NCBI RefSeq assembly: GCF_024125425.1
Contig: NZ_JAMXWN010000001.1
Span: 248,001-312,000, forward strand
DNA length: 64,000 nucleotides
Source of the DNA: Sporolactobacillus kofuensis
Lineage (GTDB): Bacteria > Bacillota > Bacilli > Bacillales > Sporolactobacillaceae
Reading direction: 5' to 3'
Shown: positions 43,816 through 48,246 of the stretch, piece after piece
How the letters are laid out: every line of letters begins with the position of its first letter
How positions within the stretch are numbered: position 1 is the first letter of the stretch
Program-made: the position numbers and the translations under genes
Notes under the pieces: generated by a model
Seen by the model: only the letters and a program-made list of their open reading frames with translations
Told to the model about the DNA's origin: nothing
Databases searched by the model: none

Positions 43816-44216
43816 GAAAATCACCTCCCTGATTGTTTTATCGGAGTGACAATGAAAATAATTGAAGAAAATTTGAATGCAAGACATATCCGCAAAACAA
43901 ACGAGTGGTACGGTGCGTATTGCAGTGCCGCATAGTTTATTGGGCCATTATTTAGAGCAAATCCTTCGGAAATGAGCGTGAAGAAATATCTATGGGCTCT
44001 GGTTAAGTAAACAGTATTATTCCAGGAAGCACTGTTTTAATTTCTCTTACGGTCTACTCTATCCAATGAATATATTTAATGAAATAAATTTATTTTTAAA
44101 TAAAAAATATTTTCAGAAATATATTTACGTTTAAACTCTAAACGCCTATAATTGGTTACAATCCATGTTATAAGATATGACATAGATAAGCAAAAAACAA
44201 TTGAGGTGAGGGAAAG
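43816..44216. other. AT-rich intergenic region with promoter
   Basis: About 400 bases without a credible gene. The right half (44050-44140) is extremely A/T rich and could act as an UP-like element for the promoter at 44124. Confidence 0.5.
44124..44152 (+). promoter_or_regulatory. Probable promoter of the double-nitrilase gene
   Basis: TTTACG (44124-44129), 17 bases, TATAAT (44147-44152), about 65 bases before the start. Confidence 0.55.
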
Positions 44217-46061
44217 ATGAACATGATTCATCGTAAATCTATTATATTATCAGTATCATTAATAGTAATCATTGCATTATCTTTTTTTGCCTTTTCATTT
44301 GGTGAAAACACGAATACAGAGGCGAAATCTAACACTCAAAAACTAAAGTCCTTTAAAGTTGCTTCGATTGAGTTTAATCCTAAGTTGAATGATAGAGATA
44401 AAAACATTGATGCTCTTTACAAACAAATTGAAACCGCATTTAAACACGGAGCGAAATTAGCCGTAGCACCTGAAATGTCCACAACCGGTTACTACTATAA
44501 AAACCGCGAAGCCATTAAACCATTTGTGGATACAATTCCAGGCAAGGCAACAAAAAAATTTGCAAAGTTAACAAGAAAGTATCACGCATATGTAGTCTTT
44601 GGTATGGCGGAAAAAGATCCTAAGACAAATGTTTACTATGATTCTTCTGCATTGGTAGGACCAGGCGGGTATATTGGAAAGTATCGTAAAACGGAGCAGT
44701 GGGAGACAGAGGAACATTGGGCAGCGTGGGGAGACTTAGGTGTTCCTGTTTTCAAAACAGAGCTGGGCAACATTGCAATTAATATATGTATGGACGCTGC
44801 TTATCCAGAAATGGCGAGACTAGCTGCAGTAAATGGCGCAGATATTATGGCTTTTCCAACAAATTCATCTGCTCAAGCAGTTGCTGCTCTCCCAGCACGA
44901 GCTATGGAGAATGGTCTATACATAGTAAGCGCTAATCGTTCAAACACTGAGAAAGGCTTTCACATGATCGGTGCTAGTGCAGTATGGTCACCAACAGGAA
45001 AAAAGTTGGCAGAAGCTAAACTTATTAAAACCCCAAAAGATGACATCAATAAACCGACTATTACTTATGCTACAATTGATCCAAAGCAATACAATAATGC
45101 CAATAAAAAAAGACTGAAAGAGCGTCGCCCTGACCTTTATCAAGATATCATGTTAAAAGTTGGACCTTGGGATTATACAACAACGAGTGAGCCCAAAAGT
45201 GTCAACGCACTAGCAATACAATATACTCCTGTTCCAGGTAATAAAAAATCTAATGAGGATAAGATAGTGAATTTGATTGACAGTAAGATTAAGAACAGTG
45301 AAGTACGACCGAACCTTATCGTCCTCCCTGAACTTTCGCTGACTGGACCTTCTGAACTTTTGAAACTTCATAGAATGTCTACGTATGCTGAAAGGATTGA
45401 TGGAGAAACAACCAAGTTTATGAAGACATTGGCTCAAAAATATCAGACAGCTATTGTTTATGGATTGATTGAAAAATCAGGAAAGAATCTTTACAATACT
45501 GCAGTATTGATGGATAAAAGCGGCAAAATTGATGGTAAGTACAGACAAGCTCAATTGAGTTCTTTTGATAAGAAATGGGCAAAACGTGGAAATTCATTAC
45601 CTGTTTTTAGTAACAATGAATTAGGGAAAGTGGGCATAATGATTGGAAATGATGTTAACTTCCCTGAAATTTCAAGTGTGTTTGCCGTTCAACGTGCAGA
45701 TATCATTGCCATTCCATCGTCATGGTATGGTCAGTTCGGTGGTAATATGGAGATCAACCATGAAATGTCTGCCAATCCTTATCCAAGTGGCACAATGCCA
45801 CTATGGTCAGAAATATCAATTGATGCCCAAAGCTACACAATTATTTCCAACTACGTTGGAACTTCCAAAGGATTTAAAGGAAGAAGTGCATTGTATACAT
45901 TGGATCCATTATATGGACTTGATCAACCGATTGTTGCTTCATCAAATAAAGAAGAAGCATTAGCTGTTAAATTCAAAACAATTCAACCTAATAACTGGTT
46001 CAATCAAGATAAATTAATTAATTCAAGACAACCAGCGTATTATAAACCACTAATAAAATAA
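44217..46061 (+). CDS. Exported protein with two tandem nitrilase domains, second one inactive
   Basis: 614 residues. A hydrophobic N-terminal segment (about 8-27) is a signal peptide or anchor. Domain 1 (about 44-300) is a carbon-nitrogen hydrolase with the full triad E86 (VAPEMSTTG), K158 (GKYRKTEQW) and C191 (NICMDAAYPE). Domain 2 (about 328-600) keeps E372 (LPELSLTG) but has Q444 for Lys (GKYRQAQL) and G477 for Cys (IGNDVNFPE), so it should be catalytically dead. The substrate is unknown; an extracellular amide or nitrile is possible. Its own promoter and terminator make it a single-gene unit. Starts at ATG with GAGGTGAGG upstream. Confidence 0.85.
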   Translation: MNMIHRKSIILSVSLIVIIALSFFAFSFGENTNTEAKSNTQKLKSFKVASIEFNPKLNDRDKNIDALYKQIETAFKHGAKLAVAPEMSTTGYYYKNREAIKPFVDTIPGKATKKFAKLTRKYHAYVVFGMAEKDPKTNVYYDSSALVGPGGYIGKYRKTEQWETEEHWAAWGDLGVPVFKTELGNIAINICMDAAYPEMARLAAVNGADIMAFPTNSSAQAVAALPARAMENGLYIVSANRSNTEKGFHMIGASAVWSPTGKKLAEAKLIKTPKDDINKPTITYATIDPKQYNNANKKRLKERRPDLYQDIMLKVGPWDYTTTSEPKSVNALAIQYTPVPGNKKSNEDKIVNLIDSKIKNSEVRPNLIVLPELSLTGPSELLKLHRMSTYAERIDGETTKFMKTLAQKYQTAIVYGLIEKSGKNLYNTAVLMDKSGKIDGKYRQAQLSSFDKKWAKRGNSLPVFSNNELGKVGIMIGNDVNFPEISSVFAVQRADIIAIPSSWYGQFGGNMEINHEMSANPYPSGTMPLWSEISIDAQSYTIISNYVGTSKGFKGRSALYTLDPLYGLDQPIVASSNKEEALAVKFKTIQPNNWFNQDKLINSRQPAYYKPLIK

Positions 46062-46109
46062 GTTTATTAGTTTTATATGAAAGCAGTACTAACAATTATT
46101 CTTTATTAT

Positions 46110-46132
46110 CGGCCGCTATGCGGCCTTTTTTA
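46110..46132 (+). terminator. Intrinsic terminator after the double-nitrilase gene
   Basis: CGGCCGC / GCGGCC stem with TAT loop and six T. Confidence 0.85.
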
Positions 46133-46411
46133 ATTTGAAAATTATTTTATTTATTATGATAAATATACACCATCGAAGGGGAATCTTTTCGTAAACCGTG
46201 AGTCCATAATATCTCATAATTAAAATGATGCCAATTTAAGACCATAATATGAGCCTATTGTTAAACGTTTGAGATTGAATCCAGATTCCTTATATGACAA
46301 ATCTTCTGTTTAATTTATACATTCTTGATCCTGTCCCTAATCAACCTGAGAGGTAAATGATTTTTCATTTGATGGGTTCTATGATGAACTGAGGAAAAAA
46401 TTTAGTAAACT
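46133..46411. other. Intergenic region, nothing identified
   Basis: About 280 bases, AT-rich. No gene, RNA or clear repeat was recognised on either strand. Confidence 0.5.
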
Positions 46412-46609
46412 TTAATAATATTGTTGCATAGTACGACTCAACCATAGCCATCGATTCACAGTTAAACCCATGATAATTACAGTTGGGATGATGATTAATA
46501 GCGACCCATTTAACCGGTTGTGACGTTTGAAAGACACAATAGAACAAATAGCGCATAACAGACAAACTGTGTAAATGACTGCTAGAATTGAATATCCTAC
46601 AACAGCCAT
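46412..46609 (-). CDS. Small two-span membrane protein, unknown
   Basis: 65 residues with two hydrophobic stretches (about 5-25 and 36-52) and Arg/Trp/Tyr near the C-terminus. The ribosome-binding site is weak (AGGTTGGG). It lies in the same orientation as four further small genes. Could be spurious. Confidence 0.4.
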   Translation of the reverse strand: MAVVGYSILAVIYTVCLLCAICSIVSFKRHNRLNGSLLIIIPTVIIMGLTVNRWLWLSRTMQQYY

Positions 46610-46712
46610 TTACGCCCAACCTAATAAAGAGATTTTGCCTTATACTGATAAATTTAGAAGGAACTGAATTTGGTTCAGGAAACTTCTATTACGAAATCCG
46701 ACCTATACTGTG

Positions 46713-46922
46713 TTAGAAAATGAAAACAAGAATAATTAATGCAAGCATGAGAGTACACGAGAATAAAACAGCTTTTGTTTTACTTTTCGATCCTTTGATT
46801 ATGTGATAAGCAACGTACAACCCATTAACGAACAGAACAATTCTGTTATAAGGTTTGGGAAGAAAAATCAATAAAGCAGGTAGGATAAGAATATACGCAA
46901 AACTTATAAAGGGATTTTTCAT
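46713..46922 (-). CDS. Small membrane protein, unknown
   Basis: 69 residues with two to three hydrophobic segments (5-20, 27-42, 50-69) and a Lys/Ser-rich loop between them. AAGGAG lies 9 bases before ATG 46922, which supports expression. No family recognised. Confidence 0.55.
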   Translation of the reverse strand: MKNPFISFAYILILPALLIFLPKPYNRIVLFVNGLYVAYHIIKGSKSKTKAVLFSCTLMLALIILVFIF

Positions 46923-46961
46923 GGATAATAACTCCTTATCTCATCAAAAAATGGTAATTGT

Positions 46962-47339
46962 TCAGCAAGTCATCTGTGCCAAAATCTTTTGCACATCAAA
47001 AATAGGGTTGTCTTTTCTAAATGTTTTTGAAATGGTTGGTTGCACTGCACCAGAAATCCATATTTTCAATTCAGCATCAAGATCTAAATGACCAGCAGTT
47101 TCTACACTGAAGTGGGAAATACTTTTGTAAGGAATAGAGTGGTAGTCCACTTTTTTGCCGGTTACTCCTTGTTTGTCAACGAACAGTAATCGCTTCTCGG
47201 TAAACACGATTAGATCTCGAATTAATTTAAAAGCTGCTGTGACCTGTTCGTCTTCAATTAAAATATCACCAATTTCTTTCTGTACTTCTCCAGGTAGTAC
47301 TTTTGATGCATTTCCAATTAGTCCATCAAAGAATCCCAT
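46962..47339 (-). CDS. Bacterial PH-domain protein, YozO-like
   Basis: 125 residues closely resembling B. subtilis YozO (bPH_1 family): MGFFDGLIGNASKVL, RDLIVFTEKRLLFVDKQGVT, and SIPYKSISHFSVETAGHLDL. Soluble PH-like fold of unknown ligand. GGAGG lies 7-8 bases upstream of the ATG. Neighbours are small membrane proteins on the same strand. Confidence 0.85.
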   Translation of the reverse strand: MGFFDGLIGNASKVLPGEVQKEIGDILIEDEQVTAAFKLIRDLIVFTEKRLLFVDKQGVTGKKVDYHSIPYKSISHFSVETAGHLDLDAELKIWISGAVQPTISKTFRKDNPIFDVQKILAQMTC

Positions 47340-47458
47340 GATTCATTCCTCCAAATCGTTATTTTTTATGACAGTATGATATTGCTCGGTAGTTTATGTT
47401 TTATCTTTGTAGCAAAAACCAAAGTTGAGAGGTGGGAGTGGTGCATGTGTAACGAGGT

Positions 47459-47815
47459 TTAGTTCTGTCTTCTCTCCAAAATTTCTTGTGCTATGCTGTT
47501 TTCTATTACTAGGTTCTTCTGTCGTACCATTTCAGGTAAAAGGAATAGATCAATGATCAGCCAAATGACCGTAATAAACGAATAACGAACTTCAGATAGA
47601 ACGGTAATCAAAATCATTAAAAGAGCAGTTCTTGTTTTCTCCAAATAGAATCTATGCCCGCCAAACAAACCAAAAATCAGTGCATTAATGTAAGCCAACA
47701 GTATGTTTTTTCTGCGTTGATCAAGTTCTTTGTTTAACATGAGAAGCTCATTATTTGTGAGTTCATCACGTAAATGAGACGTGGTTGGTTCTGTTTGACT
47801 GTTTTTTTTTATCAA
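47459..47815 (-). CDS. TM2-domain membrane protein
   Basis: 118 residues. After a polar N-terminal 35 residues comes a TM2 module (LLAYINALIFGLFGGHRFYLEKTRTAL in parts): two membrane spans with the GGHRFYL turn. TTG start with GAGGAG upstream. Function of TM2 proteins in bacteria is mostly unknown. Confidence 0.75.
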   Translation of the reverse strand: MIKKNSQTEPTTSHLRDELTNNELLMLNKELDQRRKNILLAYINALIFGLFGGHRFYLEKTRTALLMILITVLSEVRYSFITVIWLIIDLFLLPEMVRQKNLVIENSIAQEILERRQN

Positions 47816-47949
47816 GTCATCAACTCCTCTGCAAAAAATCGGGATCCCTACCGATCAGCTGATATACCATTGTTTATTATTGTATAAAAGTAGACAGAAC
47901 TCTGATAAATTAGGCTTTTTTCCATTCAAAAAAAGACTACACACAGCCC

Positions 47950-48246
47950 TTAGTGAAAGAAAGGTGCCAAAATTAGCATTAATACTGAACTAAAAATCAG
48001 AGAAATACAAACTTTCTTCGGTAGTTTAGAACTGCCCGTCCCTTTGTAAAATCCAAAATATTGGAGTTTATTTCTATACAATATAAAAAGTAGAGTAAGG
48101 ATGGATAATCCTACTAACCAAGCACCAATGGTATTGTCTACGTTTACTTCAAAACGCGCATATATTAACTTCACCAAAGCGCCCATTAATTCACCAAGAA
48201 GGAAAAAGATCACAATAATACGGATTAATTCCAGGATTGCTCTCAA
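47950..48246 (-). CDS. Membrane protein, unknown
   Basis: 98 residues from TTG 48246, with about three hydrophobic spans (7-28, 42-60, 75-95). TTG is chosen because GGGGGGAA lies about 9 bases upstream; a longer in-frame GTG at 48282 has no ribosome-binding site. No family recognised. Confidence 0.5.
   Translation of the reverse strand: MRAILELIRIIVIFFLLGELMGALVKLIYARFEVNVDNTIGAWLVGLSILTLLFILYRNKLQYFGFYKGTGSSKLPKKVCISLIFSSVLMLILAPFFH

Follow-up and report, generated by a model that had tools for sequence, protein, structure and literature searches.

A tandem nitrilase-superfamily protein of Sporolactobacillus kofuensis with glycine at the catalytic-cysteine position of its second domain

The window, the whole stretch of 64,000 nucleotides of Sporolactobacillus kofuensis DNA that was analysed, has a gene for a nitrilase-superfamily protein with two catalytic-type domains, the second of which has no nucleophile. 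The locus raises the question of why such a second domain is retained and whether the protein acts outside of the cytoplasm. A preliminary description had proposed an exported fusion of an active and a dead nitrilase domain, with its own promoter and terminator and an independent function. The features are:

44217..46061, + strand: tandem nitrilase-superfamily protein, 614 amino acids plus stop, ATG start, intact frame
44217..44339, + strand: positively charged and hydrophobic N-terminal segment (export signal or membrane anchor) plus linker, residues 1-41 (Kyte-Doolittle)
44355..45089, + strand: domain 1, CN_hydrolase, residues 47-291, catalytic Glu86, Lys158, Glu165 and Cys191 (Pfam 3.4e-39)
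44787..44789, + strand: codon of the nucleophile Cys191 (Cys in 32/32 domain-1 rows)
45213..45893, + strand: domain 2, CN_hydrolase lacking the nucleophile, roughly residues 333-559 (Pfam 3.4e-30; Foldseek 6ypa)
45645..45647, + strand: codon of Gly477, at the catalytic-cysteine position (Gly in 32/32 domain-2 rows)
46111..46131, + strand: intrinsic-terminator-like hairpin and T run, GGCCGCTATGCGGCC-TTTTTT (terminator scan)

Domain architecture, catalytic residues and layout

Pfam matches PF00795 (CN_hydrolase) twice, with values of 3.4e-39 and 3.4e-30 when the halves are searched singly. Domain 1 has the CN_hydrolase fold, the Glu-Lys-Cys triad and the second Glu of the nitrilase superfamily, and its Foldseek match to 3ivz is 4.2e-23. 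Domain 2 has the same fold (the Pfam match above, and Foldseek 6ypa at 7.5e-13 from a weak model) and has Gly477 in place of the catalytic cysteine. The residues named in the preliminary description are found at the numbers it gave, both the complete triad of domain 1 (E86, K158, C191) and E372, Q444 and G477 of domain 2. An alignment of half against half with other nitrilases pairs G477 with C191, Q444 with K158, E372 with E86 and D451 with E165. Since G477 falls on C191 when the halves are aligned, the missing nucleophile of domain 2 is not an alignment slip. The residue alignment and the Pfam matches on both halves agree with the proposed fusion of an active and a dead domain, and the protein has the make-up of a tandem live/dead family: two CN_hydrolase domains, with Cys in the first and Gly in the second. 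The genome of the window has two further nitrilase matches, each of single-domain length.

A ribosome-binding-site-like GAGGTGAGGG is located close upstream of the ATG. The claim of a stand-alone promoter was not supported, since the 13 promoter-like sites found are at chance level (14.0 +/- 3.6 expected from shuffled sequence), although one site at 44124-44152 is a 10-of-12 match; the promoter was dropped as evidence of independence. Terminator-like sites number 4 vs 2.0 +/- 1.2 expected. The closest recognised flanking genes, YjfB_motility and bPH_1, are on the opposite strand on either side, so the gene is judged by layout to be a single transcription unit; a minus-strand 84-codon ORF (46365-46619) was left out of the neighbour domain scan. 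The gene has a GC content of 0.370, below the mean of 0.427 (sd 0.021) across 32 long window ORFs. The region 46001-48000, which adjoins the gene, also has a low GC content (0.335) and holds bPH_1 and TM2 genes.

Conservation and age of the second domain

The preliminary description had regarded an intact second triad in homologues as a sign of recent decay in this protein. The homologue search found Gly at position 477 in 48/48 tandem proteins scored (window included), which come from Firmicutes, Proteobacteria and a Synergistaceae MAG, and Cys in none (0/48). These rows consist of 31 distinct full or near-full proteins, 15 further distinct proteins from a phylum-wide search and 2 from plasmids. 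Cys191, Lys158 and Glu86 of domain 1 are also retained in 48/48 rows, and position 165 is E or D throughout the 31-row alignment. In domain 2, Glu372 is retained in 45/46 rows (Asp in the other) and position 451 is acidic in 29/32 (D 24, E 5). Of 46 rows, 33 have K at position 444, 12 have Q and one has a different residue. Because position 444 varies between rows, Gln444 is incidental and only the Cys-to-Gly change is fixed; the Gln that had been described as a mark of the dead domain is present here but is not a general one.

In one alignment, Cys is found in 32/32 first domains and in 31/31 comparison rows, and Gly in 32/32 second domains. The comparison rows, several of them near-copies, are 30 single-domain nitrilases (including L079) and the first part of L075; neither L079 nor L075 has a scorable domain 2. 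L075 is an apparently broken tandem locus in which the second part sits in another frame and is not read through. A stand-alone protein of the Gly type was not found in the part of the listed matches that was examined (the 30 single-domain rows, L113 and L115), all of which have Cys. Several loci were collected more than once: the protein of L064 is identical to that of L007 and L092 is the same locus, L015 equals L004 (the S. terrae locus) across 1,000 compared bases, and L016-L020 and L060 are shorter versions of loci that L044-L049 likewise cover.

A maximum-likelihood tree of 95 rows places the 32 second domains on one side of a branch with 100/97 support, and the first domains together with the comparison rows on the other. 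The tree took 32 of the 46 tandem rows and has several long branches, so the inner order of the second-domain branch is unsure. The single branch points to one old tandem, which may have resulted from a duplication or from a fusion of two nitrilases. Since the Gly is shared across phyla and the second domains form a single branch, the loss of the nucleophile is old, and recent decay of domain 2 was ruled out on these grounds. Judged from the sequences, the Gly-fixed domain is an old component, conserved across a broader enzyme family that has been little studied. Domain 1 is better conserved than domain 2 (mean majority frequency 0.67 vs 0.53).

The full-length relative in Sporolactobacillus terrae is 74% identical. 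The clade is present in 2/15 genus genomes searched, own included; the low GC content and the patchy presence suggest gain by transfer or repeated loss. A solitary gene with low GC (0.370 vs 0.427) in 2/15 genomes of the genus might also be a recent, decaying duplicate without function, but the frame is intact and colinear with two other Sporolactobacillus genomes at 73-75% identity, the catalytic residues of domain 1 are kept and the same Gly is found across phyla. This explanation is very improbable and is considered refuted by the conservation of the full tandem.

Wider searches gave a match at E 1e-50 in 12/299 genomes of the class and at 1e-40 in 19/398 genomes of the phylum, own included in both; the latter are not all tandem (L079, L075). 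Among plasmid records, 183 have a match at 1e-20 and 103 of these cover at least 80% of the query. Rhizobium, Agrobacterium or Klebsiella account for 145/183 records, with single-domain matches among them.

N-terminal segment and gene neighbourhoods

The N-terminus is charged and then hydrophobic, and the 17-residue stretch right behind HRKS has a mean Kyte-Doolittle hydropathy of 2.89. Residues 4-27 are modelled as a helix, with low model confidence there. Hydropathy alone cannot tell a signal peptide from a membrane anchor. A strongly hydrophobic segment ahead of domain 1 is found in 13/23 clade rows (10/23 have none) and in 0/8 sister rows, counted on stop-to-stop frames with start codons not fixed. 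An export-type segment, as had been proposed, is supported for this protein, but not as a family-wide trait. A rough scan of later rows gave a clear segment in L065 (and L064) and a score of 2.1 in the leader of L069 and L070; the start of the latter two is uncertain, so a hydrophobic leader may also occur outside of the clade. In L061, L009 and L065 the segment ends in GC, which we take to be lipobox-like. Two rows with the segment, L013 and L014, are a Deltaproteobacterium MAG and a Synergistaceae MAG, so the exporting branch is not purely Gram-positive. A location outside of the cytoplasm is likely in the branch of the window protein, as a trait of that lineage and not of the family. Export is not conserved family-wide and so cannot account for the dead domain.

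Anchoring to the S-layer was considered for L006, L008 and L012 and set aside as a hint, because the SLH similarity of their insert is sub-threshold (E 0.0059, 0.056 and 0.16; 17.0, 13.9 and 12.4 bits vs 20.8). The longer scans, at 0.01, gave no SLH match.

The neighbourhoods of 22 clade loci, window included, were scanned with flanks of 8.4 to 17.7 kb, leaving out the short contigs L006 and L014; the controls are 20 loci of 11-14 kb around single-domain nitrilases from related genomes. OpuC/OpuAC-type binding-protein or permease genes are present in 9/22 clade loci (L009, L010, L085-L091) and MttB-type methyltransferase genes in 3/22 (L007, L013, L093). Betaine-type transport/sensing or MttB genes are found in 12/22 clade loci vs 0/20 single-nitrilase loci; this contrast is real but inflated in size, since the case loci supplied the probes, many case loci are related (L085-L091) and nearly all controls belong to other genomes. 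At least one gene for an alpha/beta hydrolase, DUF6282, a GlcD/GlcF-like oxidase or a GltS-type symporter is present in 9/22 clade loci. Any recurring neighbour gene, of the Opu, MttB or hydrolase/DUF6282/oxidase/GltS sets, is found in 16/22 clade vs 0/20 control loci, with weak ATPase matches excluded from the count in both. This whole set is missing from the loci of the window, S. terrae, THM7-7, L048 and L084.

The window gene does stand alone as described, with its nearest recognised genes on the other strand and 0 recurring clade neighbour genes. An independent function holds for this locus in so far as the gene is solitary here, but not for the clade, in which 16 of the 22 loci, the window being one of the 22, have at least one recurring neighbour.

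Several individual loci have further features. In Geosporobacter (L010:6996-8969), an MCPsignal chemoreceptor fused to an OpuAC betaine-binding domain directly follows the exported tandem nitrilase. An Epulopiscium contig (L012:2831-4498) has an ammonium transporter-PII fusion directly upstream of the exported form. DUF6282, alpha/beta hydrolase, GlcD/GlcF-like oxidase and GltS-like symporter genes recur by the nitrilases at L009:6856-7716 and other clade loci. A DUF6282-based pathway was set aside, as the term was not found in the literature searched. A DUF6282 search gave no match in the window genome, which does not show absence, since it gave none in the 14 control genomes either.

Forms with the hydrophobic segment (exported forms) tend to be near secondary carriers, GltS in L008, L009, L010 and L061 and MFS in L007, L013 and L093, and cytosolic forms are near ABC importers in L085-L091. 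This pattern is broken by L009, where an OpuAC protein is present as well, the exported L011, L004, L005 and window loci, which have neither carrier kind, and the cytosolic L047, L048 and L084, which have neither an ABC importer nor a secondary carrier. An ABC binding protein gene adjoins 1/12 exported and 7/10 cytosolic forms (Fisher p 0.006); the test is descriptive only, since the OpuAC chemoreceptor of L010 was scored as a non-transporter and related loci as independent. The split fits a scheme in which exported forms would cut outside and import the product and cytosolic forms would import the substrate.

In a more specific scheme, the substrate of the exported relatives would be a quaternary-ammonium (betaine-like) amide or nitrile that is broken down outside of the cell; a neighbouring secondary carrier would import the product, and the window copy would have the same role unlinked. 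The OpuC/OpuAC-type genes of 9/22 and MttB-type genes of 3/22 clade loci vs 0/20 controls suggest this, as do the GltS-type (L008, L009, L010, L061) or MFS-type (L007, L013, L093) carriers by exported forms, the OpuAC-chemoreceptor fusion of L010 and the ammonium transporter-PII fusion upstream in L012. However, the window, S. terrae and THM7-7 loci are without any such gene, 7/9 Opu-type loci adjoin cytosolic forms and OpuAC proteins bind many solutes. The comparison itself uses probes from case loci, related loci and controls that are nearly all from other genomes, and ammonium-transporter matches are also found in control locus L124. The scheme is possible but doubtful.

The sister set has a different surrounding. 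Urt-type ABC genes (urea/amide ABC) are present in 6/18 loci (L044-L046, L062, L082, L083), FmdA acetamidase/formamidase genes in 4/18 (L044-L046, L082) and AmiC-like plus ANTAR genes in 4/18 (L062, L063, L082, L083). A carrier of the cytosine-permease type sits directly upstream of the tandem gene in L063. The remaining 11/18 loci have none of Urt, FmdA, AmiC/ANTAR or permease apart from weak generic ABC matches. Among the sister-set loci, L097 has a weak OpuAC match and L103 has corrinoid/MtrH-like matches. AmiC- and permease-type genes are also near single-domain nitrilases in 2/20 control loci (L129, L130). A cluster at L044-L046, from the genus and family of the window, combines five ABC genes of the Urt type with FmdA and a tandem nitrilase of a second type; L044 and L045 additionally have a single nitrilase. 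The window genome has an FmdA-type acetamidase/formamidase gene elsewhere (L104/L105, G000:C12:93868-94476). The accessible part of a 2026 report describes acetamidase activity in a Klebsiella strain whose sole acetamidase gene is in a plasmid amiC-amiR-ABC operon (PMC13209695).

Related proteins and the role of the second domain

The annotated tandem proteins examined carry the generic NCBI name "nitrilase-related carbon-nitrogen hydrolase". Those of Priestia, Rhizobium, Agrobacterium, Pantoea and Raoultella have the layout and length of the window protein, and the five checked (L061, L062, L063, L082, L083) pair an active first domain with a Gly-type second domain. Unlike the window protein, with its predicted export segment, L062 and L063 of the sister set have none, and four sister-set tandems are in amide/urea-type clusters whereas the window gene is solitary. 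The same name is given to a 475-aa protein in the portion of one paper available (PMC11596576). In the excerpts of other matching literature, "nitrilase-related" genes are listed or tandem Arabidopsis genes are meant. A tandem live/dead nitrilase is the subject of no paper among the matches listed (titles and abstract starts, with few subscription journals). The available text of one report describes a Bacillus subtilis nitrilase as extracellular; a bacterial nitrilase outside of the cell is therefore not new in itself.

The FmdA and AmiE/AmiF operons resemble the sister-set loci in their Urt, FmdA and AmiC/ANTAR genes. The window protein reached no curated NCBIfam cut-off for the 12 families listed, with 128 vs 406 bits for the AmiF equivalog, 94.6 vs 427 for AmiE and 254.7 vs 500 for NF040852 (archaeal nitrilase equivalog, nitrile_Arch). 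The CDD models nitrilase_1_R1 and R2 presumably cover, respectively, domains 1 and 2 of a tandem subgroup that is uncharacterised, in which case the tandem architecture is already catalogued. A literature search for these two names gave no paper.

The nearest solved relative of domain 1 is the Pyrococcus amidase PaNit / PH0642 (3ivz, 1j31, 6ypa; sequence match 2.4e-43), but its chains of ~262 residues have a single domain without a fused dead copy. A second comparison is with vanin, with which we take biotinidase to group as a two-domain surface enzyme of the nitrilase superfamily. Vanin (pantetheinase) is a cell-surface enzyme whose nitrilase domain is packed against a further, C-terminal domain. 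This base domain is described in the part of the source available as a beta-sandwich to which no PDB structure has sequence homology (PMC4834066). The second domain of the window protein is instead CN_hydrolase itself, which ruled out an architecture of this type.

The full chain was modelled by AlphaFold2 (12 rows) with a pLDDT of 75.1 and a pTM of 0.80; domain 2 alone (11 rows) is poorer (63.0 and 0.71). Beyond residue 500, both models have many low-confidence stretches in domain 2. Foldseek matches the full model to 3ivz (36% identity) and 6ypa over the length of one domain, and the domain-2 model best to 6ypa and also to yeast N-terminal amidase. The pTM of 0.80 of the full-chain model fits the idea of an intramolecular dimer. 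In the accessible portions of the literature, dimers of alpha-beta-beta-alpha subunits are characteristic of the nitrilase superfamily and the cysteine is assisted by both glutamates (PMC4812014). For beta-ureidopropionase, activity depends on subunit contacts, and contacts in the oligomer order an active-site loop with the second Glu, the fourth catalytic residue (PMC10741476, in part).

A single-chain pseudodimer is a reasonably probable explanation, in which the protein is an extracytoplasmic amidase/nitrilase and domain 2 a built-in non-catalytic partner. The N-terminal segment would take the protein across the membrane and then anchor it or be cleaved, so that the enzyme acts outside. Domain 1 would be a normal Cys-Glu-Lys(-Glu) amidase/nitrilase which splits the C-N bond in small amides or nitriles to give ammonia and a carboxylate; small amides are the safest guess for the substrate and betaine-like amides the boldest. 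Domain 2 would have been born once, by an old duplication or fusion, with the Cys-to-Gly change preceding the spread of the family. It may be retained because it stands in for the partner subunit of the ordinary nitrilase dimer; in that role it would keep domain 1 and its active-site loops in their active conformation, and it may also have a ligand pocket that tunes activity.

A role as built-in partner is the likeliest explanation for the dead domain. In its main rival, domain 2 would be a ligand-sensing (allosteric) or substrate-capturing pocket which toggles domain 1 on or off through substrate or product. The pocket acids of domain 2 are largely retained (first Glu 45/46, second acid 29/32) where catalysis is not possible, and W503, P523 and W530 are invariant in the 12 clade rows of alignment A1, with a DPLYGLDQP-like stretch nearly so, which was counted in favour of a sensing pocket. 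However, these residues may serve folding or the interface instead, and position 444 is not fixed, with Lys in 33 and Gln in 12 of 46 rows. A sensing role is unlikely.

Taken further, the tandem proteins could tentatively be viewed as a widespread family in which the dead second subunit is a covalent activator, and one mostly Gram-positive branch as a surface amidase/nitrilase supplying betaine-type amides and ammonia to dedicated carriers. The tandem family is found in several phyla and on plasmids, yet the window protein is below every curated NCBIfam cut-off. In a symmetric homodimer, the roles of individual subunits are hard to separate; the natural pairing of an active with a dead half in this chain makes their separate contributions directly testable. 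If true, the extracellular branch would add a bacterial route to nitrogen from amides and nitriles ahead of uptake.
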